Assembly (NCBI RefSeq): GCF_000426625.1
Contig: NZ_KE384548.1
Location: 434,001-498,000, forward strand
Source of the DNA: Psychrilyobacter atlanticus DSM 19335
Lineage (GTDB): Bacteria > Fusobacteriota > Fusobacteriia > Fusobacteriales > Fusobacteriaceae
Direction of reading: 5' to 3'
DNA length: 64,000 nt
The position numbers and the translations under genes were made by a program. The notes under the pieces were generated by a model. The model had not been told where the DNA came from, made no database searches, and saw only the letters and a program-made list of their open reading frames with translations. Each line of letters starts with the position of its first letter. Position 1 is the first letter of the stretch. Below are positions 7,252 through 63,215 of the stretch, piece after piece.

Positions 7252-7370
7252 TCCAAGTATTATTAAAATAATTGAATTAGAAGTAATGATGAAAGGAATA
7301 AGATCAAAAGGTTTTAGGTATAATAATTTTATGTATGATTTATTAAAATAAATTAAAGAAGGTGAAAGTT

Positions 7371-7547
7371 ATTTTTTATTATATAGACATTCAAACTCAT
7401 TATATTCATAGGCAGCGTTTATGCAATCACTTACCAAAACAAAATAGAGAATATTTAGGTCATTATAAGCGCTTAGGAGAAGCTGTGGCTTCTGCGAAAG
7501 CTAAGGGTTATTTAGATGTAAATAGTTGCGATTACTGTTGTAATTAA
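7371..7547 (+). CDS. Ada-like mini zinc-binding protein, paralogue 1 (possible ATT start)
   Basis: A short protein with the pattern YID-x5-IH-x4-C-x9-YLG-x13-GYL-x5-C-x2-C. This resembles the small metal-binding domain of Ada (KxHxxxC ... GYxPCxxC), so the His/Cys residues probably bind zinc. Two paralogues lie at 43212 and 43431. Start choice is odd: AAGGTG is 6 nt before ATT (7371), while the in-frame GTG at 7362 overlaps that ribosome-binding site. By comparison with the 43212 paralogue, ATT is the better-placed start; the GTG gives 61 residues, the ATT 58. No function is known. Confidence 0.6.
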   Translation: MFYYIDIQTHYIHRQRLCNHLPKQNREYLGHYKRLGEAVASAKAKGYLDVNSCDYCCN

Positions 7548-14420: not shown

Positions 14421-15638
14421 TTATAAATTAATATTTTTAATTAGAAGCGATGCTTCATATTCCATATTGTTATTAAAATAATACTTTAATATAGAAATAA
14501 TAAATTCTGAACTTAAATATTTAAATTCAATTTGTTGGATATGTTTTATGAGTTTTTCCTGTTTTAAAGGTCTCTTCCCATAGAGAATAACAAGATGTTT
14601 AATACTATCTAAATGTTTTTCAATGCTAAAAGAAGTATTATGTAAGTTTATTTCAAAAGAAATTTCTTTTTCAAATGCTTCTACAGCCTTTACCCTATCT
14701 TTTAGATGTAGATAAATCTTTCCTATGTTCCAATAAGTTTGATAGATATTTTCCCCTTTGAGGTGCTTTAAGGTAGTTTCTAATTTTTTTAAAGTATTTA
14801 TCATAAGGGGTTCATATTTCATCTCTTTAGCACAAGAAAGAATATTGACATAACATATTTTTAACTGTTTATAGTTTGTGGGATCACTTACACCTTTTTT
14901 AAAAAATTCGATAGCTTTTTCATATTTTCCTAAATTTTTATAACAAATACCTAAGTTGGTAAAAGAATGGTAAAAATGTTTGGTTACCTCCTGTATATTA
15001 ATAACAATTTCAAAGCATGAGATAGCTTTACTCCATTTTTTTGTTCTCAAGAGGTTCACTCCAGTATTATAAGCTAAGAGAGTCTTTGTTTTGTATGGAG
15101 CTATATCGATCTGTTTTTTATATTTCAGGTATATATCATGGGTAAGTTCGAATTTTTCCAGTCTGATGATCTCAATTAAGATAGAGTAGAAAAGATTAGA
15201 GCAAGGGAAGTTATTTAATAGATCATGATAGATCTTTAAAGCATCATCTTTCTTACCCATCTTTTGATTATATTTGGCTATAATATATCGATATTTTAAG
15301 CTATAAACTTCTTTTTCTCGTCCAAATAATTCTATTTCTTCTTGTTTTTCTTTGAAATAAATACTTTTATCTATGAGACTTTTATTTACTAATTTATCTA
15401 GTTCTTCTTGGGGAGTAAAAAAGATTAATTTAGATAATTCATCTATAGTCATTATTTTATCTGTTTTTCTTTCGTGGAAAACTCTATTGAAAGATCCAAC
15501 CAATAAAGGGATATGTTTTTCTTTAAAAAAATTATGACCTCTTTTTATTTTAGAAAGATATGTTGAACTAAGTCCTTGCCCTGAAAGTTCTTTTAAAGTT
15601 ATTTTATGTTCTTTTGCTAGTTCAAATATTTTTTGCAC
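14421..15638 (-). CDS. RRNPP-type HTH-TPR transcriptional regulator
   Basis: 405 residues from GTG, with GGAGGG 6 nt ahead. Residues about 5-55 form an XRE-like helix-turn-helix (KEHKITLKELSGQGLSSTYLSKIKRGHNFFKEKHIP). The rest is a chain of tetratricopeptide repeats (IAKYNQKMGKKDDALKIYHDLL; FTNLGICYKNLGKYEKAIEFFKKG; YWNIGKIYLHLKDRVKAVEAFEKEI). HTH plus TPR with a small secreted-peptide gene immediately downstream is the defining layout of peptide-sensing RRNPP receptors (Rgg, NprR, PlcR, AimR). It is divergent from the MFS operon across a large inverted repeat that is its likely operator. Ligand and sign of control are inferred. Confidence 0.75.
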   Translation of the reverse strand: MQKIFELAKEHKITLKELSGQGLSSTYLSKIKRGHNFFKEKHIPLLVGSFNRVFHERKTDKIMTIDELSKLIFFTPQEELDKLVNKSLIDKSIYFKEKQEEIELFGREKEVYSLKYRYIIAKYNQKMGKKDDALKIYHDLLNNFPCSNLFYSILIEIIRLEKFELTHDIYLKYKKQIDIAPYKTKTLLAYNTGVNLLRTKKWSKAISCFEIVINIQEVTKHFYHSFTNLGICYKNLGKYEKAIEFFKKGVSDPTNYKQLKICYVNILSCAKEMKYEPLMINTLKKLETTLKHLKGENIYQTYWNIGKIYLHLKDRVKAVEAFEKEISFEINLHNTSFSIEKHLDSIKHLVILYGKRPLKQEKLIKHIQQIEFKYLSSEFIISILKYYFNNNMEYEASLLIKNINL

Positions 15639-15687
15639 GGTAATCCCTCCCTATTAATATTAAGAGTATATCTTTAAAATTCAATTT

Positions 15688-15773
15688 ATCAAAAAAACTT
15701 TAAAATAGATGAAAAAATGAATGAAATAGTCCTTTAAAATTCATTTTTTGTCTATTTTTCAAGTTTTTTTGAT
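15688..15773. promoter_or_regulatory. Inverted-repeat operator between regulator and exporters
   Basis: Two about 35-bp arms (15688-15722 and 15739-15773) are reverse complements with one substitution and a small shift, around a 16-nt spacer. Both contain ATCAAAAAAACTT and AAAAAATGAAT blocks. TTTAAAATTCA also occurs as a direct repeat at 15673 and 15733. The right arm overlaps the -35 of the exporter operon and the left arm lies about 50 bp ahead of the regulator's GTG. It is the natural binding site for the HTH-TPR protein. Confidence 0.65.
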
Positions 15774-15798
15774 ATTTCAGAAAAGCCCAGTATATATA
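15769..15798 (+). promoter_or_regulatory. Promoter of the MFS operon
   Basis: TTGATA at 15769-15774, an 18-nt spacer and TATATA at 15793, about 55 nt before the first MFS start. The -35 lies inside the right arm of the inverted repeat. Confidence 0.55.
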
Positions 15799-15852
15799 TA
15801 TTACAGTAATGAAAATATTTAGTTTTTTATTGATTAAAAAGGGGAGGAGAAT

Positions 15853-17082
15853 ATGAATTTTTTACTATATTTAATATCATCAGTTACATCAATTGTAGGT
15901 TCGGGGATGCAGTCAGTTGTTATTCCACTATATATTTTAAAAGTCACAGGGTCAGGCCTAGAGATGGGAAAAGCTGCCAGTGTATTTTTAGTTCTAAGTC
16001 TTATTACCGGTCCAATAATGGGAATAGTAGCAGATAAATTCAATAGAAAACACCTATTAATAATATGTGATTTTTTGTCTTTTATAACAATATCAATTCT
16101 ACTTCTGAGTGGAAGAACTAGCACTTCTTCTATAATTCTTATGCAAGGAGTTCTGGTTGTTATTTCAAGATGTTTTTCATCTGCATCTTCGGCAATTTTT
16201 TCAGAATTAGATTCTATAAAAAAAGTTGAAAGAAATAACAATATCTATAGTGGAGTAATCACCTTTACACAAATATTTACTCCAATTTTAGGAGTTGCTT
16301 TGTATGGATTTATGAAAATAGAATTAATCTTTCTTTTAAACGCAATAACTTTTTTAATTTCAGGATTCTCTGAAGTTTTTATCAAATACACTCCTAGTGA
16401 AAAGAGGAAAGAGATAAAGATTCAAAGTATTAAGAGTGTCATAGCATCCTATGCTCCTGTTGTAAAATATTTAAAGGAAAAAGATGAAATCTTAGGGGTT
16501 TCAGGGTATATTATTGTTCTAAATTTCTTTTTTAACCCTGTGACAACGATTGTATTTTCATACTTTATCTTACAAGAATTAAACTTAAAACCTTCATATA
16601 TAGGTTATTTAGAGAGTGTATTTGTTATTGGTCTTTTATTAGGTAATATTATCATTGGTAAATTTTTTAAAACAATTGAATTTAGAGAAAAAATAACTTA
16701 TTTTTTGATAATTCAACTAATGATTTTAGCATTATTTATGAATATGGATCTATATATTCCTAATCCATACTTTATTTATATAAATGGATTTCTTATCTTG
16801 ATGCTTGGTATTTTTAATAGTTTAGTCAATGTTCCATTTTTATCTTATCTACAAAAAACCGTAGACTGTGATATTAAAGGGAGGTTTTTCTCATTATTGG
16901 ATACAATGGTTAGATCTGTAGTTCCTTTTGGTTTAATAATTTTTGGTCTTTTGATAGATTATAAATTCAATATAAGATCTGTTGTTACTATGGGATCAAT
17001 CACATTAACAATAGCAACCTATTTGTTTTTTGGAAAAACTAAAGCAGGAAAAAAGTTTGTAAATAAATCAATTGCTAATTAA
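15853..17082 (+). CDS. MFS transporter 1 of the tandem cluster
   Basis: 409 residues with about 12 membrane helices and the MFS loop motif GIVADKFNRKHLLIICD between helices 2 and 3. GGGGAGGAG precedes the ATG. Length and motifs fit the MFS_3 / MefA-like exporter branch (efflux of macrolides, siderophores or peptides). First gene of a four-gene operon under the inverted-repeat operator. Substrate unknown. Confidence 0.85.
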   Translation: MNFLLYLISSVTSIVGSGMQSVVIPLYILKVTGSGLEMGKAASVFLVLSLITGPIMGIVADKFNRKHLLIICDFLSFITISILLLSGRTSTSSIILMQGVLVVISRCFSSASSAIFSELDSIKKVERNNNIYSGVITFTQIFTPILGVALYGFMKIELIFLLNAITFLISGFSEVFIKYTPSEKRKEIKIQSIKSVIASYAPVVKYLKEKDEILGVSGYIIVLNFFFNPVTTIVFSYFILQELNLKPSYIGYLESVFVIGLLLGNIIIGKFFKTIEFREKITYFLIIQLMILALFMNMDLYIPNPYFIYINGFLILMLGIFNSLVNVPFLSYLQKTVDCDIKGRFFSLLDTMVRSVVPFGLIIFGLLIDYKFNIRSVVTMGSITLTIATYLFFGKTKAGKKFVNKSIAN

Positions 17083-17107
17083 TTGTAACGAATAGGAGGA
17101 GAGGAAG

Positions 17108-18364
17108 ATTTTTAATAAAAAATTATTAAGAAATTCAAATTTTATGTTGTTAATTGTAGGTCGGTTTGTTTCGATTTTTGGGACATATATTCAAAACTTT
17201 TCATTATCACTATATGTACTTCACAAGACTGGAGATGCTGCGTTATTTGCGTCTACGATAGCAGTATCTTTTATACCTAGAATTATTTTAGGGCCATTTG
17301 CAGGAGTATTGGCAGATAAGTTTAATAAGAAAAAAATTATGGTTACCTTAGATTTTATAAGTGGAGGAGTAATAGCCATCTACTCTTTGATATTTTTTTT
17401 AAAAGGAGAGTTTTCAATCTTTGATATCTATGTTATCCAAATAACGCTTTCTCTTCTTAATGTAATATTTGCTCCTGCCTCAATGGGAGTATTACCTGTA
17501 ATTATAGAAAAAAGCGAAAGAAAAGATGCCAATAGTTTAAACTCATTTTTATCTTCAGGTTTGGAGTTTATTACTCCGTTAATTGCAGGATTCACATACA
17601 GCTTTGGATTACTTCCTATAATGATATTTAATAGTTTAAGCTTTGTTATATCAGGAATAAGTGAGATATTCATAAAACTTCCTGTGAGTAAGAGAGAAAA
17701 AAGTAAACTGAATGTAAAAAGTTTCTTAGTAGACCTAAAGGAAGGTGTAGTTATTTTAGGTAAGGATAGATCTATATTAGGTCTTATATTTATAGGATGC
17801 GGCTTAAACCTATTGATAGGACCTCTTTTCTCCATTGCTTTCCCGTATATATTAAAAACACAACTATTAGTTGACGATAGAACTTTTGGAATTGTTCTAT
17901 CCATAATGATCAGTGCTATGGTTATCTCTCCATTTATAGCCAGCAATATATTAAAGAAAGTTAGTATCAATACACTACTAAAAAAAATCTATCTATTAAT
18001 AATAATTATGACAATCGCTTGTGGTGGAATCTTTTTAGGAACATCAAATTTCTTAGTTCTTATAATTTCACTGACTATATTTGGATTTTTAGTAGCAGGG
18101 TTAATAAATATTCTTGGAATATGTCTAGTAGGAAGTTTTCAAGATATAGTTCCGGAAGAGTATTACGGCCGAATAGGAGCTCTATTTAATAGTTCCATGG
18201 ATATAGCCACACCCTTAGGTCAATTGCTGATAGGGTTTATATTAGCAGGGGGAAATTCTGCATCACTTTTTATTATTACCGGTATATTACTATCTACTTA
18301 TCTTATAGTTTTTAGATGGTTAACAAAAGAAAATAAAAATAAAAATAAGTATAGAAGTGTATAA
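17108..18364 (+). CDS. MFS transporter 2, probable ATT start
   Basis: The frame has an ATG at 17144 but it lacks a ribosome-binding site. TAGGAGGA lies 7 nt before an in-frame ATT at 17108, giving the extra N-terminus IFNKKLLRNSNF ahead of helix 1, a typical MFS start (compare MRNYW in transporter 3). Twelve helices and GVLADKFNKKKIMVTLD are seen. About 418 residues from the ATT, 406 from the ATG. It is 25 nt after transporter 1 and about 35-40 nt before transporter 3. Exporter of unknown substrate; divergence from its two neighbours suggests different cargo or a heteromeric role. Confidence 0.8.
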   Translation: MFNKKLLRNSNFMLLIVGRFVSIFGTYIQNFSLSLYVLHKTGDAALFASTIAVSFIPRIILGPFAGVLADKFNKKKIMVTLDFISGGVIAIYSLIFFLKGEFSIFDIYVIQITLSLLNVIFAPASMGVLPVIIEKSERKDANSLNSFLSSGLEFITPLIAGFTYSFGLLPIMIFNSLSFVISGISEIFIKLPVSKREKSKLNVKSFLVDLKEGVVILGKDRSILGLIFIGCGLNLLIGPLFSIAFPYILKTQLLVDDRTFGIVLSIMISAMVISPFIASNILKKVSINTLLKKIYLLIIIMTIACGGIFLGTSNFLVLIISLTIFGFLVAGLINILGICLVGSFQDIVPEEYYGRIGALFNSSMDIATPLGQLLIGFILAGGNSASLFIITGILLSTYLIVFRWLTKENKNKNKYRSV

Positions 18365-34811: not shown

Positions 34812-37800
34812 GTGCTTATGCCAAAAAATTATAACGAATTAAAAAAAAGAGGATTAAAAGGGACAGTGGCTATTGGTATTGTTGTAGCTACATTATTATT
34901 AATGCATTCATGTTTTTCTGATAAGGAAATAGAGAAAAAGGAAGGATTAACTAACATTGGAGATAAAAAAATAGAAAAATCAACTAATACTGATGAGAAA
35001 GAAGAACTAGTTTCTTCTAAGGAAGATGCAAATTCGAATATTAAAGACGGAGTTATTAAAGCTAGTAATTCTAAATCAGGGTCTTCAGTAACGGAAGAAG
35101 ATTATTTTAAGCCAAACAAATTAAAGGAAAAAACACTTATAAAAACTCAAAATCAAAAAACAGAAGATACTCAAAAATTTAAAGTAAAAAAGAAAATAGA
35201 AACTAAAGGGGATTCAAGTGAGACTACTTCAAAAGAGAGTGTTAACAGTTTTGATGATACTAATCAAGGTAATGAGAGTTTAATAAAAGGGGAAAAAAAG
35301 CTAAAAGAAGAAGAGAATAAAGAAGAACATAGTTTATTAGTCTTTGGAAGCTTAGGTTTTGAGAAAATTAATCATAGCAGCAGTAAAGATACAGGATCTA
35401 CAGATCCGATAGATCCAGATAAACCAGATAAACCAGATAAACCAGACAGACCAAACAGACCAGATATAGACGATTTATTACCAATAACACCAGAAGTACC
35501 AGTAACAGAAGTAATAATTTGGGAAAATGGGAATGAGATATATGGTAATAAATATACTTTGAAAAATAACTTAGAAATGATAGATAATATAGATGGGTTA
35601 AAAACAACCGGAGGAACTATTATTAATGAGGCTACAATTAATTCAAATGCTTTTGTTGGGGAAAATTATGCTATGAGAGCTGAAGATCATGCAGATGGTC
35701 GTCAAGGTATAGCAATTAATAAAGGGAATATCACAGGTGGTAGCAAGGGAATGATTGCTATAAATGGTGGAGAAATTATAAATGATGGAACAATTGACCT
35801 TACTTTTGATTCTAATGGAGGTATGGTTGCAGATGGTGCTGGGAGTTCAGCTATAAATAATGGAACTGTAAAGGGAACAATGGCATCACATCGATTTGCT
35901 TCTATGATAAATGAAGGGACTGCAGATACAATGAGAGCATTTTCTAATTCTACTGCTATAAATAATGGTGAGACAGGGCGTATGGATGCCTCATTTGAAG
36001 CTACTATGACAAATTATAACAAAGCTTCAGATATGTGGGCTTATAACGCTACTATCATTAATGAGGTTGGAGGAGTAATTAGTACTTCTGACTCTCTTAT
36101 TTCTGACTCTCATGGAATGTATGCTAGAGAAGGTTCAACTGCTATAAATAAAGGTGAAATAAGAGTTGCACTATCTCCAGGGAAATATGGAATGTATGCT
36201 ACAGGTGGCTCAACAATAATTAATGAAAAAGGTGGAACAATAATTAATGCAGCAGACGGTGGAATGAGAGCCAATGGTGCAGGTAGTATAGCTACAAATA
36301 AAGGCGAAATTCAAAGTGGTAATAGAGGAAGTGGAATGGGAGCCAATAGTGTTGCCGTTGCTATAAATGAAGAAACAGGAGTTATCACTGGTAGCGACAA
36401 CCATAATGGAATGTATGCAGATGGAGCAAGGTCTTTAGTAAGAAATAAAGGAACTATTTCTAATAGTGGAACAACTAATATGTTATCTTACAGAGGTGGT
36501 CAGGCCATCAATGAAGAAACAGGAATCCTTTCAAATAGTAAAGAAGCAGGTATGGAAGCTGATGGAGGTAACGGTTCAACAGCAATTAATAAAGGAACTA
36601 TAAAAGATTCTCAAATGAATGGAATGCGTGGTCATACTGGAACTCATGTAGAAAACACTTCAACTGGTAAGATCATTAATTCTAAAGAAACTGGAATATA
36701 TGCAGCTGGAGTAGGATCAACTGGAATTAATTTCGGTATCATATCAGATTCAGGTATTAGGGGAATGTATACAGATAGTAAGGGAACTATAATAAATGAA
36801 AAAGGTGGAGAAATAATTAATTCTAAAAGTTCAGGGATGCATGTATATGGAGAAGGAGCATCTGGAATTAATAAGGGGACAATATCGGGTTCAGGAAGTA
36901 GTGGTATGTATGCAGATGGTGAAGGTGTAGTAATAAATGATACAAATGGAGAGATCAATAAATCTAAAGGATCAGGTATCCATATAAGTGGATTAAATTC
37001 AGTAGGAACTAATGATGGTAAGATATTAGATTCAGAGATTAGTGGGATGTTTGTAGAAAATAAAGGTACTATAATAAATACTGTAAATGGAAAGATTACT
37101 AACTCAAAGGGATCAGGTATGCATGTTGATGGACCAAAGTCACTAGGAACTAATAGTGGTAGTATATTAGGTTCAGGAATTAGTGGAATGTATGCAGAAA
37201 ATGGAAGTACAGTAATAAATGAAAAAGATGGAAAGATCATTGGTTCAAAAGGATCAGGTATCCATGTAAGTGGTTTCGGTTCAACAGGGATTAATAGTGG
37301 TGAAATATTGGATTCCGAGATTAGTGGAATGCATGCCGAAAATCATGGCAGTATAGTAAACACTGTTGATGGAAAAATAATTAATTCTAAAGGTTCCGGA
37401 ATGTATGTAAGTGGAACGGGAGCATCTGGAATTAATAGTGGTACAATATCGGGTTCAGAAGATTGGGGTATGTATACTGAAGGAAAAGATTCATCAGGAA
37501 TAAATGATGGAGAAATAACAAGTGAAAAACAAGGAATGTATACAAGTGAAGGAACTATAACTAATAATGACTTAATAACGATAAATAGAAATGGTGTAGG
37601 AATGGAAATAGATGGTGGATCTGCTGTTAATAAAGGAACTATAACATCTATTAGTGGATCTAACATAGGTATTAGGGTTTATAATAATGGAACCGCTGTA
37701 AATGAAGGAACGATCTCTACTGATGGTGACTATGGAATGCATATAGTTAGAGGAACAGGAATAAATGAAAAAGGTGCAACAACCTCTAATACTGGTGACC

Positions 37801-40586
37801 ATGGAATGTATATAGCTGATGCAGGAATAGGGACCAACAAAGGAACGATCTCTAATACTGGTAACAATGGAATGACTATATCTGGAGCAGGAAGTACAGG
37901 GATAAATGAAAAAGGTGCAACAATCTCTAATACTGGTGCCTATGGAATGAATATATCTGGAATAGGAATAGGGACCAACAAAGGAGCTATCTCTAATACT
38001 GGTAACTATGGAATGAATGTAGTTGAAGCAGGAAGTACAGGGATAAATGAAGTAGGTGCAACAATCTCTAATACTGGTAACTATGGAATGAATATATCTA
38101 GAGGAATAGGGACCAACAAAGGAACGATCTCTAACGATGGTGACGATGGAATGAGGATATATGCAACAAGTATAGGAATAAATGAAAAAGATGCAACAAT
38201 CTCTAACAATGGTGACGATGGAATGAATATAATTTATGGAGGAACAGGGACCAACAAAGGAACGATCTCTAACGATGGTGACTATGGAATGTATATAGCT
38301 GAAGTAGGAAGTACAGGAATAAATGAAGTAGGTGCAACAATCTCTAATACTCGTGACTATGGAATGCTTATAGAGAAAGCAGGAGTAGGGATCAACAAAG
38401 GAACAATCTCTAATACCGGCAACAATGGAATGACTATATCTGGAAGTACAGGGATAAATGAAGAAGGTGCAATAATCTCTAATACTGGTGACTATGGAAT
38501 GAAAATATCTGGAGGAACAGGAACCAACAAAGGAGCTATCTCTAACGATGGTGATTATGGAATCTATATAACTGGATCAGGTAGTACAGGAATAAATGAA
38601 GTAGGTGCAACAATCTCTAATGTTGGTGACTATGGAATAGAGATAACTTCTGGAGGAACAGGAACCAACAAAGGAATAATCTCTAACGATGGTGACTATG
38701 GAATGCATATAGTTAGAGCAACAGGAATAAATGAAGAAGGTGCAACAATCTCTAATACTGGTAGCTATAGGATGCACATAGAGAGAGGGGGAACAGGAAT
38801 AAATAACGGGGATTTAGACGATGGATCTGATAACTATATTGTAATGCGAGCATCTAGTAGCGATAGTTTTGGTAAGAATACTGGAACTATTGATATAAAT
38901 TATTCTAATAGTATTGCAATGAACGGAGTGTTAGGAGGTTCACTTTTAAACGAGGGAACAATTAACATAAATGGAGATAATGGTGTTGGAATGTATATTA
39001 ATGGAGGTGGAACAGCTACAAATGAATCAGGAGGTATTATTAACCTAAATTCTACTAATGGAATTGGTATTTATGCTACCGGAAAAGGATCAAAAGTTGT
39101 AAATAATGGTGAGATTAATCTTTCAGGTAACTCAACAGATGGAGATAAAACCGATGATAAAGGGAACAGAAATATAGTTTTAGAAGATGGAGCAACGTTC
39201 CTTAATAGTGGAGTATTTAGATCCGATGGAAATATAAATTTTGATGAAATGGGTGACGGTAAATTTATTATGAGTAGTGGTGGAACAGTAGAAGCCGATA
39301 AAATAGAAGGAGATATCTATGCAAGTGGAGCATTAGCCATGGGCGGATATGATGATGTCTACAGTACATATAAGATGCTGGAAACTAATGAATTAGATGG
39401 AAACATAATTTCTAATTCGGCAATGTTTGATGCTCACTTTACTGATAATGCTGATGATAATGGTTTTTATGATGTTGTATTGGATAGGAAAGATTTTAAT
39501 ACAATTGTTAGTAACGAAGAAATAGGGGAAATATTAGAAGATAATTATGAAGATAATGGAAATGAATTAAAAGAAGATTACTATGATGCTCTAAAGCTAG
39601 TATCAACAGAAAAAGGTTTAGATAAAGCAGTCGAAGATAGTTATGGAATGTCTTACTACCCAACATTAGCTAAACAAACTTTTGAAATAGTAAATGATAG
39701 TAACCAGGTAATCGTTGATAATGTTATTAACAATGAAAGAGTAAGAAGGGTTGGAGAAACTATAGCTATAGCAGGAGTAAATACTACAAGATTAGAAAAT
39801 GATTCCCATGATAATGCTTCAGGGTATGATACTGATTTGTACAGTGTTTATTTAGGAGCAGAAAAACAAATAAATAAAAACACACGTATCGGTGGAATTC
39901 TTACCATAGGTAAAGGAGATACAGATTTAAATGATATAAAAGGATCTAGAGAAGATTATTATTACCAAGGTAATGTATATTTTACTTATGAAAATGAAGA
40001 TAGATTAAAATTTACATCAATGATATTTGGTGGGATGACTGATACATCTCTAGATAGAACCTTAGCATTTGGAAGTTTGTATGAAACAATGGAAGATGAT
40101 ATCAATAACTATTATGTAGGATTAAATAATGAATTAAGTAAAAAATATTATTTTGGTCAAAATTATATAAAACCTAAATTTGAGCTTAACTTTACATATA
40201 TGATGCAAGATGATATTTCAGAATCAGGGGACCAAGGATTAGAGATTGATGGTGTAAATTCTGTATCTGTGGAGACAGGCTTAGGATTAGCATTAGGAAG
40301 AGATTTTTATATGGATAATGGAAGTAAGTTCAACATTGAAGGAAGTGTTACAGGATATGCTGAATTAGCAGACCCATATAAAGATTTAGATTCGACTTTT
40401 AATACTTTAAGTACAGATAAAGTTAAGATAGACGGATATAATAATGACGATTTTTATGGCGACATCATGATTGGTGGAAGTTATGAAACCAAAAATTCAT
40501 TAAAATTATATACAAAAATAGGATATAGAATAGGTAATGATTCAGATGGACCTATAGGGAATATTGGATTTAATTATTTATTTTAA
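34812..40586 (+). CDS. Giant autotransporter adhesin with glycine-rich repeat passenger
   Basis: 1924 residues from GTG 34812 (AGGGAGAG 5 nt ahead; the ATG two codons later is less well spaced). A hydrophobic signal (about 17-32, ending MHSC34) is followed by a charged linker and a proline-aspartate hinge (DPDKPDKPDKPDRPNRPD, about 196-218). The passenger, about 230-1460, is built of short beta-helix repeats of the type GMYADG..GSTGINE.GATISNTG. The last about 270 residues form an autotransporter barrel ending in GNIGFNYLF with a terminal Phe. It is a type Va surface adhesin. Near-identical repeats indicate recent expansion. Confidence 0.88.
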   Translation: MLMPKNYNELKKRGLKGTVAIGIVVATLLLMHSCFSDKEIEKKEGLTNIGDKKIEKSTNTDEKEELVSSKEDANSNIKDGVIKASNSKSGSSVTEEDYFKPNKLKEKTLIKTQNQKTEDTQKFKVKKKIETKGDSSETTSKESVNSFDDTNQGNESLIKGEKKLKEEENKEEHSLLVFGSLGFEKINHSSSKDTGSTDPIDPDKPDKPDKPDRPNRPDIDDLLPITPEVPVTEVIIWENGNEIYGNKYTLKNNLEMIDNIDGLKTTGGTIINEATINSNAFVGENYAMRAEDHADGRQGIAINKGNITGGSKGMIAINGGEIINDGTIDLTFDSNGGMVADGAGSSAINNGTVKGTMASHRFASMINEGTADTMRAFSNSTAINNGETGRMDASFEATMTNYNKASDMWAYNATIINEVGGVISTSDSLISDSHGMYAREGSTAINKGEIRVALSPGKYGMYATGGSTIINEKGGTIINAADGGMRANGAGSIATNKGEIQSGNRGSGMGANSVAVAINEETGVITGSDNHNGMYADGARSLVRNKGTISNSGTTNMLSYRGGQAINEETGILSNSKEAGMEADGGNGSTAINKGTIKDSQMNGMRGHTGTHVENTSTGKIINSKETGIYAAGVGSTGINFGIISDSGIRGMYTDSKGTIINEKGGEIINSKSSGMHVYGEGASGINKGTISGSGSSGMYADGEGVVINDTNGEINKSKGSGIHISGLNSVGTNDGKILDSEISGMFVENKGTIINTVNGKITNSKGSGMHVDGPKSLGTNSGSILGSGISGMYAENGSTVINEKDGKIIGSKGSGIHVSGFGSTGINSGEILDSEISGMHAENHGSIVNTVDGKIINSKGSGMYVSGTGASGINSGTISGSEDWGMYTEGKDSSGINDGEITSEKQGMYTSEGTITNNDLITINRNGVGMEIDGGSAVNKGTITSISGSNIGIRVYNNGTAVNEGTISTDGDYGMHIVRGTGINEKGATTSNTGDHGMYIADAGIGTNKGTISNTGNNGMTISGAGSTGINEKGATISNTGAYGMNISGIGIGTNKGAISNTGNYGMNVVEAGSTGINEVGATISNTGNYGMNISRGIGTNKGTISNDGDDGMRIYATSIGINEKDATISNNGDDGMNIIYGGTGTNKGTISNDGDYGMYIAEVGSTGINEVGATISNTRDYGMLIEKAGVGINKGTISNTGNNGMTISGSTGINEEGAIISNTGDYGMKISGGTGTNKGAISNDGDYGIYITGSGSTGINEVGATISNVGDYGIEITSGGTGTNKGIISNDGDYGMHIVRATGINEEGATISNTGSYRMHIERGGTGINNGDLDDGSDNYIVMRASSSDSFGKNTGTIDINYSNSIAMNGVLGGSLLNEGTININGDNGVGMYINGGGTATNESGGIINLNSTNGIGIYATGKGSKVVNNGEINLSGNSTDGDKTDDKGNRNIVLEDGATFLNSGVFRSDGNINFDEMGDGKFIMSSGGTVEADKIEGDIYASGALAMGGYDDVYSTYKMLETNELDGNIISNSAMFDAHFTDNADDNGFYDVVLDRKDFNTIVSNEEIGEILEDNYEDNGNELKEDYYDALKLVSTEKGLDKAVEDSYGMSYYPTLAKQTFEIVNDSNQVIVDNVINNERVRRVGETIAIAGVNTTRLENDSHDNASGYDTDLYSVYLGAEKQINKNTRIGGILTIGKGDTDLNDIKGSREDYYYQGNVYFTYENEDRLKFTSMIFGGMTDTSLDRTLAFGSLYETMEDDINNYYVGLNNELSKKYYFGQNYIKPKFELNFTYMMQDDISESGDQGLEIDGVNSVSVETGLGLALGRDFYMDNGSKFNIEGSVTGYAELADPYKDLDSTFNTLSTDKVKIDGYNNDDFYGDIMIGGSYETKNSLKLYTKIGYRIGNDSDGPIGNIGFNYLF
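37700..38790 (+). repeat. Tandem DNA repeats in the autotransporter passenger
   Basis: About ten two-part units with shared blocks such as GGAATAAATGAAGTAGGTGC, AACAATCTCTAATACTGGTG and ACTATGGAATG, each coding for INE-GATISNTGDYGM and TNKGTISNDGDYGM. Units differ by few bases. An older, more diverged array with the MHVSG..GINSGEI pattern lies at about 36720-37470. Confidence 0.85.
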
Positions 40587-43154: not shown

Positions 43155-43211
43155 TTTTGTATAATAAAAATAAAATTAGATTTTTTATAGTATAAAGATT
43201 GGAGGTTAGTT

Positions 43212-43400
43212 ATCTTTTATTTTATCAATACAAAAAATCAAAAGATACATCTAAAACATTGTGAGTATTTATCAGAAAAAAAGAAATTCTTTTTAGGATC
43301 TCATAACAATTTAGAGTCTGTAGTAATTACTGCTATATCAGAAGGATATGTTAATGCAAAAATTTGTTCTCATTGTTGCATGTCAATAAATTGGGACTAG
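43212..43400 (+). CDS. Ada-like mini zinc-binding protein, paralogue 2 (ATC start)
   Basis: 62 residues: IFYFINTKNQKIHLKHCEYL through GYVNAKICSHCCMS. Same IH-x3-C and CxxC(C) pattern as the proteins at 7371 and 43431. No ATG, GTG or TTG exists between the upstream stop and the conserved start of the domain. GGAGG at 43201-43205 is exactly 6 nt before ATC 43212. So either an AUC start is used or the ATG has mutated and the gene is dying. Function unknown. Confidence 0.55.
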   Translation: MFYFINTKNQKIHLKHCEYLSEKKKFFLGSHNNLESVVITAISEGYVNAKICSHCCMSINWD

Positions 43401-43430: not shown

Positions 43431-43616
43431 ATGCACTATATTGACTTTTATATCGATACCAAAACACGTAAAATTCATAAAGCAAGTTGTACAAAATCAT
43501 CATATAAATCTAATATTTATTTAGGTATTTTTAGAAATTTTCATATAGCACTAATACATGCTGAGTCTAGAGGATATTTAGAGTTTTCTATTTGTGAGCA
43601 TTGTAATGTTTCTTAA
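43431..43616 (+). CDS. Ada-like mini zinc-binding protein, paralogue 3
   Basis: 61 residues with a normal ATG 6 nt after GGGGG. DFYIDTKTRKIHKASCTKSS and GYLEFSICEHCNVS carry the probable zinc ligands (His, Cys, CxxC). It lies 30 nt after paralogue 2. This proves the family is translated as a short stand-alone domain here. Compare the damaged-phosphate-sensing metal domain of Ada; the methyl-transfer function cannot be assumed. Confidence 0.7.
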   Translation: MHYIDFYIDTKTRKIHKASCTKSSYKSNIYLGIFRNFHIALIHAESRGYLEFSICEHCNVS

Positions 43617-43649: not shown

Positions 43650-43868
43650 ATGGGAAAAATAGTAATAATGTTATTAATAATAGTAATAATAGGGGGATAT
43701 CTTTGTTTGTCGGTTTATAAAAATGATGAGAGATTCTTTAGTCTGCCCTATCAGAGAAGAACAGTAAATATTTTTGGAAGAAAAATAGCTAGATTATTTT
43801 ATTTTGGGTTTGGATTTGTAATGATCATTTTTGCTTCATTTCTGATTTTTAAGATGTTAAATCAATAA
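43650..43868 (+). CDS. Small two-helix membrane protein
   Basis: 72 residues: helix about 3-20 (KIVIMLLIIVIIGGYLCLSV), a loop (KNDERFFSLPYQRRTVNIFG) and helix about 49-70. AAAGGAG precedes the ATG. Family not recognised. Confidence 0.55.
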   Translation: MGKIVIMLLIIVIIGGYLCLSVYKNDERFFSLPYQRRTVNIFGRKIARLFYFGFGFVMIIFASFLIFKMLNQ

Positions 43869-45490: not shown

Positions 45491-45599
45491 TTTGCTTGTA
45501 ATTGGGCTCTAAAGAGTCTTAGTTGACACCAGAATTCTTTTGGTTGTAAAACAAAAAATAAATACATCGGGAAGATCCCTTGAAAAGGAGACAAATAAA

Positions 45600-45770
45600 A
45601 TAGAATTTAAAGAAGAAAAATTAATAGACTACATTATAACAGAATACACACTCGAAGAAATTAATGAAGCTAAAAAAAAAGCTATGAAAGATGAAGAGAG
45701 AAGAGCATTTGTTTTGATGCATAGAGGAAATGCTTTAATAGGTTATTTAATATGTCATGGATATCTATGA
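45600..45770 (+). CDS. Small hypothetical protein, start uncertain (possible ATA)
   Basis: The frame is open from 45540 (TTG, no ribosome-binding site). AAGGAG at 45585-45590 lies 9 nt before an in-frame ATA at 45600, giving 56 residues: IEFKEEKLIDYIITEYTLEE and a hydrophobic C-terminus MHRGNALIGYLICHGYL. The composition looks coding. No family recognised. Confidence 0.45.
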   Translation: MEFKEEKLIDYIITEYTLEEINEAKKKAMKDEERRAFVLMHRGNALIGYLICHGYL

Positions 45771-59904: not shown

Positions 59905-60230
59905 TTATATTCCTCCTATATCTTTATTTTTCTTATTGTACCACATATAGTCTACATATTTTCATTAAGTAGTATCAATTGACTATCCCCCTCTAAAGCG
60001 GTAGCGTTCGAAGAGGATACTCATATGGGGGATTAAGCTCGTTCGCTCTCCCTCGGAGTATGGCAGAGATAAATAGTCTCAGACCCCTCTTTAAAAGAAA
60101 ATCTTAAATTGTAATGAAATTTTAATATTATAATGAAATATTCAACATTAAAATGAATTAATTTGGAGTTTAATCTCAAACTTGATACAATTAGTTCAGT
60201 ATATTTTAAATTAAAAACTAAATAATTATG
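59905..60230. other. Intergenic stretch before the first riboswitch
   Basis: A GC-richer patch (about 59985-60090) holds short inverted segments (CCCCCTCTAAAGCGG, ATGGGGGATTAAGC) but no RNA gene I can name. The remainder is AT-rich, with likely promoter elements (TTGATACAATTAGTTCAGTA...) for the riboswitch transcript. Confidence 0.4.
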
Positions 60231-60312
60231 AAAAAGGCAAAACAGAAGAAATTCTGTGACGCAAAACTAGAGGGTCTACGTTTATATTAGATATGACAGC
60301 CAGTTACCAAAA
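60231..60312 (+). ncRNA. c-di-GMP-I (GEMM) riboswitch 1
   Basis: Shows the GEMM-I core in order: GGCAAA, a hairpin (ACAGAAGAAATTCTGT), GACGCAAAACTAGAGGGTCT, a second hairpin (TCTATATTAGATAT type) and CAGCCAGTTACC that closes on GGCAAA. It is followed at once by a terminator hairpin and the HD-GYP gene, so cyclic di-GMP should control expression of an enzyme that degrades it. Confidence 0.9.
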
Positions 60313-62655: not shown

Positions 62656-63131
62656 TCAATATTTTTTTAATCTACAGATTCTACGAAGTCTTTAATTTCA
62701 CTTGTAGATATCTTTTCTAATGTATCTTCAAGGATTTTCATCAATAAATTATCTTCTATTTCATATTAATTTATCATCTTTCTAAGTTTTAAAACAGTGA
62801 CCTAGTAATTCATTTTTTTCTATACTTTTAATGGCTTTTATTATAGAAGTGTAATTTATAAAAATAAAATTATGGAAAAAAATAAAAATTACCCTTAGTT
62901 TTTCATTATTCATGACCTTTTAATTTGTTTTTAGTTCTAATTTGATTTCTTATGCAGTTAAATGAAACGTGTTTGTTTTGAAATTCAAAAATGGATTAAT
63001 TTTTTTTAATTTTTTCTGAAAGTAAATCGTGTTATAATAACATCCGTTATGAAATGTGCCATACATTTTTTTTAAAATTAAAATATGTTTAGCATATGAC
63101 CAAATATTTTTTTTGAAATATTTGATAAAAA
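62656..63131. other. Intergenic stretch with a short minus-strand remnant
   Basis: At 62670-62770 the minus strand reads YEIEDNLLMKILEDTLEKIS then TSEIKDFVESVD before a stop, without a ribosome-binding site; probably a gene end left behind. A likely promoter for riboswitch 2 (TTGTTTTGAAATTC..., TATAAT at about 63033) lies in 62970-63060. Nothing else recognised. Confidence 0.35.
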
Positions 63132-63215
63132 AGAAAATAGCAAACCTTGGGAAACCTTGGGACGCAAAGCTATAGGGTCTACGTCTATATTAGATATGGC
63201 TGCCAGTTGCCTTTA
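63132..63215 (+). ncRNA. c-di-GMP-I (GEMM) riboswitch 2
   Basis: AGCAAACCTTGGGAAACCTT, GGGACGCAAAGCTATAGG, GTCTACG, hairpin TCTATATTAGATAT and GGCTGCCAGTTGCC. It fits the GEMM-I consensus better than copy 1, with the canonical GGGACGCAAAGC. A terminator follows and then a pilus-chaperone-like gene. Confidence 0.93.

Follow-up and report, generated by a model that had tools for sequence, protein, structure and literature searches.

The gene with a probable ATC start and other genes of the window

Positions 43212–43400 (+ strand) of the window, the whole 64,000-nucleotide stretch of Psychrilyobacter atlanticus DNA that was analysed, encode a 62-residue Cys/His mini protein for which ATC (43212–43214) is the only possible start, an assignment based on the lack of an upstream in-frame NTG, the alignment of family starts, a dN/dS of 0.30 and a predicted structure with a pLDDT of 87. 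The Shine–Dalgarno (SD) core GGAGG (43201–43205, + strand) is separated from the ATC by 6 nt (TTAGTT), exactly as the initial annotation had described, and thus combines a strong SD with normal spacing. The frame is closed upstream by TAG (43188–43190), which is followed by the codons TAT AAA GAT TGG AGG TTA GTT ATC. No ATG, GTG or TTG occurs in this frame between the TAG and the conserved domain, which bears out the second claim of that annotation, namely that a conventional start is absent from this interval. The earliest in-frame ATG downstream of the ATC is at 43380, close to the C-terminus.

The gene is followed by a tandem paralogue (43431–43616, + strand; 61 residues), which has an ATG start and a GGGGG SD. 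A 72-residue membrane-type protein (43650–43868, + strand) also starts at ATG here, and its orthologue in a second species (G058) has ATA after an 8-base SD (dN/dS 0.20). Two other genes of the window had been listed together with 43212 as having AUH codons (ATC, ATT or ATA) at their starts. The first (7371–7547, + strand) encodes a 58-residue paralogue of the mini protein with ATT at the start column of the family alignment, preceded by the SD-like sequence AAGGTG(A) (7359–7364, + strand) and the spacer AAAGTT. The ATT and its 6 nt spacing are as claimed, but the likeness to 43212 is incomplete, as an in-frame GTG (7362–7364) lies inside the SD-like word, itself without an SD. The second (45600–45770, + strand) encodes a 56-residue protein and starts at ATA, 9 nt after the SD AAGGAG (45585–45590, + strand), in agreement with the earlier reading. 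An in-frame TTG at 45540 lacks an SD, and the G058 orthologue (84% identical; dS 0.44, dN/dS 0.157) retains both ATA and SD and has a TAA that closes the frame between the equivalent of this TTG and the ATA, so that the ATA region is the only one common to the two species. A fourth AUH case, absent from the earlier list, is an MFS-type transporter of 418 residues (17108–18364, + strand) with an ATT start after the SD AGGAGG (17094–17099, + strand), which overlaps the upstream stop TAG; the NTG codons near its N-terminus (ATG 17144 and a TTG after it) have no SD. Its G058 orthologue shares both the ATT and the SD and is 98% identical, and at a dS of 0.03 the pair is too close to show that the ATT is kept.

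The mini-protein family and its start column

The P. atlanticus genome contains 12 clear members of the 43212 family (E below 1e-10), and matches (E up to 0.001) were found in 13 of 98 Fusobacteriota genomes, three of them weak. No Pfam family scored above its cut-off, NCBIfam gave no match and plasmid searches with two family members as queries also gave none. The 62-residue translation of 43212 aligns with the products of 7371 and 43431. Residues I5, H13, C17, L28, G29 and C55 (P0001 numbering) are invariant in a 15-row family alignment, and T9 and G45 are almost so. The candidate metal ligands are H13, C17, C55 and the mostly conserved C52, rather than four cysteines. A structure predicted from a three-row alignment consists of three strands and two short helices, with a mean pLDDT of 87.3. 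Its best fold match in the PDB is the Ada N-terminal metal-binding domain (1wpk and 1u8b), at a non-significant level (Foldseek E 0.92, TM 0.47), and its viral matches, which include Ada-like and zinc-ribbon names, are not significant either. The protein is probably a small, lineage-specific Cys/His protein that binds zinc, although the non-significance of all of these fold matches means that zinc binding can only be suggested.

Genes of the family often form tandem doublets. These are found in P. atlanticus at C3:477212/477440, C3:863757/864247, C2:1350926/1351241 and C2:1099054/1099378, and G058 and a close relative, G054, carry doublets or a triplet. At 43212 and in G054, the AUH copy is in each case the first gene of its doublet.

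Start codons were compared over 49 rows, including two duplicates, and hence over 47 distinct members. ATG was assigned in 37 of them (33 by script and four by eye from rows that the script had marked 'none'), GTG in one, TTG in one and AUH in four, and the four unassigned members belong to one divergent subfamily, in which an ATA called by the script for one member was rejected as a remote site. The four AUH members are 43212 (ATC), its G058 orthologue (ATA), 7371 (ATT) and the G054 copy (ATT), whose orthologues in P. atlanticus and G058 and whose paralogue all carry ATG. The ATC of 43212 falls exactly on the column in which most members have ATG, which indicates that its placement is more than chance, and the ATA of the G058 orthologue is at the same place with the same SD (GGAGGT). 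A rival reading is that translation begins elsewhere, for instance at a distant NTG reached by frameshifting, or by reinitiation from an upstream frame. In its favour, 7371 and 45600 each have an NTG in frame, without an SD, and the G058 orthologue of 43212 is open further upstream, with an ATG there. In P. atlanticus, however, the TAG closes the frame just 5' of the SD of 43212, the preceding gene ends 57 nt short of the ATC and, as read from the printed sequences, the similarity to G058 is concentrated from the SD onward. We regard a start elsewhere as highly improbable.

The 43212 gene is conserved and under purifying selection: its comparison with the G058 orthologue gives a dN/dS of 0.30, with 8, 7 and 17 differences at codon positions 1, 2 and 3, respectively. 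The ATT copy of G054 and its ATG paralogue give a dN/dS of 0.13, with 5, 6 and 19 differences at the three positions. These values, with their codon-position pattern, indicate that both frames are maintained as proteins.

AUH starts elsewhere in the genus

Several genes support the use of AUH starts in the genus, namely 45600, a HAD hydrolase, a YkoE-like transporter, a debranching enzyme and infC. The HAD hydrolase gene (L076) has ATA in P. atlanticus and G058, where G054 and most relatives have ATG; the ATG is at this column or one codon on in 17 of the 20 loci read, the exceptions being P. atlanticus, G058 and G060, and the G060 copy is apparently disrupted. The first two copies differ with a dS of 0.37 and a dN/dS of 0.054. 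The gene that we take to encode a YkoE-like transporter (L116) likewise has ATA in both species (dS 0.44, dN/dS 0.049), and the 16 further loci that were read carry ATG in this column or close to it; seven codons downstream of the ATA there is an ATG in frame that lacks an SD. The ATT of the P. atlanticus gene for a presumed debranching enzyme (L074) aligns with ATG in G040, and the ATG of G059 is one codon later. The initial annotation had proposed an inspection of infC, the start of which was read as the codon that precedes the serine; it is AUU or AUA in all 30 loci read and AUU in P. atlanticus, as in other bacteria. Further cases in the genus, among them the MFS-type gene 17108 and 7371, are more weakly supported.

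Several candidates were rejected or set aside. An MFS frame without NTG in L112 (minus strand, ORF 14680–15862 of the reverse complement) has an ATG one base out of frame beside an A-run and is thus a frameshift rather than an AUH case, whether through slippage, error or a recent mutation. A flavoprotein-like gene (L114:13420–14012, + strand) has an SD and ATG, a TGA after four codons and then ATT with an intact 186-codon frame, and was rejected on account of the ATG and in-frame TGA. The G058 candidates in L107 and L130 look false on reading, and those of P. atlanticus in L115 and L120 have no orthologue start available for comparison. Kinase-like (L072) and permease-like (L074) frames have no usable NTG in either species, and their SDs are weaker. 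A 565-codon sensor-type frame (L072:4942–6636, + strand), the first 89 codons of which contain no NTG, is 96% identical in G058 and overlaps the final part of a regulator-like frame that lies upstream. Frames interrupted by UGA, SelD-like ones included, were not counted as AUH cases but put down to selenoproteins, which those in L075, L084 and L108 presumably encode; a tRNA-SeC gene is present in the sample.

The initial annotation had offered relaxed initiation or loss of ATG as explanations for the AUH starts. Under the second, the mini genes would have lost their ATG and be decaying, with the AUH a fossil of it and the frames still open only because the loss is recent. The genome is AT-rich (GC 0.31), which makes ATG to ATA a likely mutation, some copies differ between ATG and AUH among close relatives (the G054 ATT copy and the ATG/ATA pair at 43650), and the ATA-bearing G060 HAD copy appears disrupted. 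Against this, dN/dS is far below 1 (0.05–0.30) in all AUH pairs for which intact genes were measured, the differences are in excess at third positions, and AUH and SD are retained together in two species at dS values of 0.37–0.49. The relaxed selection expected of a lost-start pseudogene was not seen in the AUH genes tested, and the ATA at the same place in G058 together with the dN/dS of 0.30 argues that 43212 is not a decaying gene. Decay is therefore improbable, and this half of the earlier explanation is contradicted, while the occurrence of AUH at several genes, aligned with the ATG of relatives, stands.

Frequency of AUH starts and a model for initiation

AUH codons after SDs were counted, as had also been proposed, in an 858,200 bp sample of P. 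atlanticus with 622 coding ORFs past a codon-usage filter (GC 0.31); the 43212 and 7371 genes failed this filter and are outside the count. No NTG with an SD was found in 40 of the 622 ORFs, 20 of which have an SD of at least five bases near the N-terminus, and in eight of these, including infC, the SD is followed by AUH (permutation mean 4.11, P = 0.026). The corresponding G058 figure is 7/23, two of the seven being judged false (mean 4.38, P = 0.114), and the controls gave 1/7 (G025), 0/9 (G068) and 1/12 (E. coli K-12, the one being infC). A modest excess over chance is thus found in P. atlanticus but not clearly in G058 or against the controls: with infC left out, P. atlanticus and G058 together have 14/1152 and the three control samples 1/441 (P = 0.08), so the AUH rate of the genus may be an ordinary one and a higher use than in the controls is suggestive only. 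Within the mini-protein family, 4 of the 32 members of the genus with assigned starts have AUH against a P. atlanticus background of 7/621 (P = 0.0012), the two counts having been obtained by different methods. The first codon-blind scans of orthologues were swamped by shadow frames, and only NTG/NTG tallies and single cases were used from them; in 191 of 325 filtered pairs, the two species have an NTG with an SD in a common column.

These counts bear on a general relaxation of start selection, in which an altered IF3, initiator tRNA or ribosome would make AUH starts routine. About 1% of the coding ORFs of P. atlanticus (8/622, including infC) have AUH at an SD and no SD-supported NTG, and its IF3 lacks several basic residues of the E. 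coli protein (R99K, R112G, R129M and R131F). In the IF3 comparison (25 of 30 loci; the control frames L260, L261 and L265 were not recovered by the pattern and were dropped), however, position 131 is also Phe or Tyr in other genera, and a genus-specific change was rejected. An unusual initiator tRNA was likewise rejected: the initiators carry CAU, and no UAU-type initiator is among the 33 distinct tRNA sequences read from the P. atlanticus sample and from 30 of the 64 matching loci, a set beyond which other tRNAs may exist. The weak enrichment of AUH and the 191 shared NTG starts also argue against relaxation, as does the retention of AUU/AUA by infC, which suggests that discrimination at initiation still matters. 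General relaxation thus draws weak support and seems unlikely.

AUH-type weak start codons are known in bacteria but are rare; infC, which encodes IF3, starts at AUU in E. coli and others, and pcnB starts at AUU. Like these genes, 43212 has AUH after a strong SD and no usable NTG; it differs from them in function and size, and IF3 autoregulation is a feature described for infC. Judged from sequence comparison, the ATC of 43212 is most probably a genuine start, functional but inefficient and carried by its strong SD as in infC, pcnB and Staphylococcus aureus cvfC1, and the gene is best read as a member of this class. The GGAGG would position the ribosome at the ATC, where the initiator fMet-tRNA (CAU) would pair with A and U at bases 1 and 2 and mismatch at base 3. 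With only AU paired, initiation would work at a fraction of the efficiency of AUG, presumably under discrimination by IF3, and the Cys/His protein would be kept at a low level; the same device would serve several other genes of the genus. Assignment of AUH to a weak, IF3-disfavoured class fits the pairing rules reported by Katoh and Suga (PMC10158994), by which only Watson–Crick pairs are tolerated at codon bases 1 and 2 and weak base-3 pairs are excluded by IF3.

A further likeness is to S. aureus cvfC1, which is reported (PMC13009471) to encode a putative zinc finger of 61 residues, to start at AUU behind an extended SD and to reach about 10% of the activity of AUG when the medium is poor; ccpN and citZ start at AUA in the same account. 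Both cvfC1, as described there, and 43212 encode tiny putative zinc proteins from AUH with a strong SD and a start conserved between species, a likeness of features rather than of compared sequences. In contrast to cvfC1, ccpN and citZ as so described, 43212 belongs to another phylum and to a multi-copy family with mixed ATG and AUH members. Streptomyces sigR, as reported (PMC5472188), is similar in that a non-canonical start holds the protein low under IF3, and different in that the codon is GTC and the product a sigma factor. Literature searches gave no paper on AUH starts in Fusobacteria among the matches listed.

More tentatively, the AUH starts might act as a dosage dial, in which the first gene of a mini-protein doublet drifts back and forth between AUG and AUH, its partner stays at AUG, and base 3 determines how much of one protein is made relative to the other; the whole set of AUH genes, infC among them, would follow the level of IF3 in concert. 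We consider this rather doubtful. Gene finders limited to ATG, GTG and TTG miss or truncate AUH-started genes. Orthologues of the species pair with differing starts (ATG/ATA and ATC/ATA) and a conserved SD are natural material for testing the effect of AUH and for asking whether selection holds starts away from AUG.

Elsewhere in the window, two c-di-GMP-I riboswitches (60226–60311 and 63129–63214) score above the Rfam gathering threshold, and a repeat-rich frame of 1924 codons (34812–40586) ends in what we take to resemble an autotransporter beta domain.
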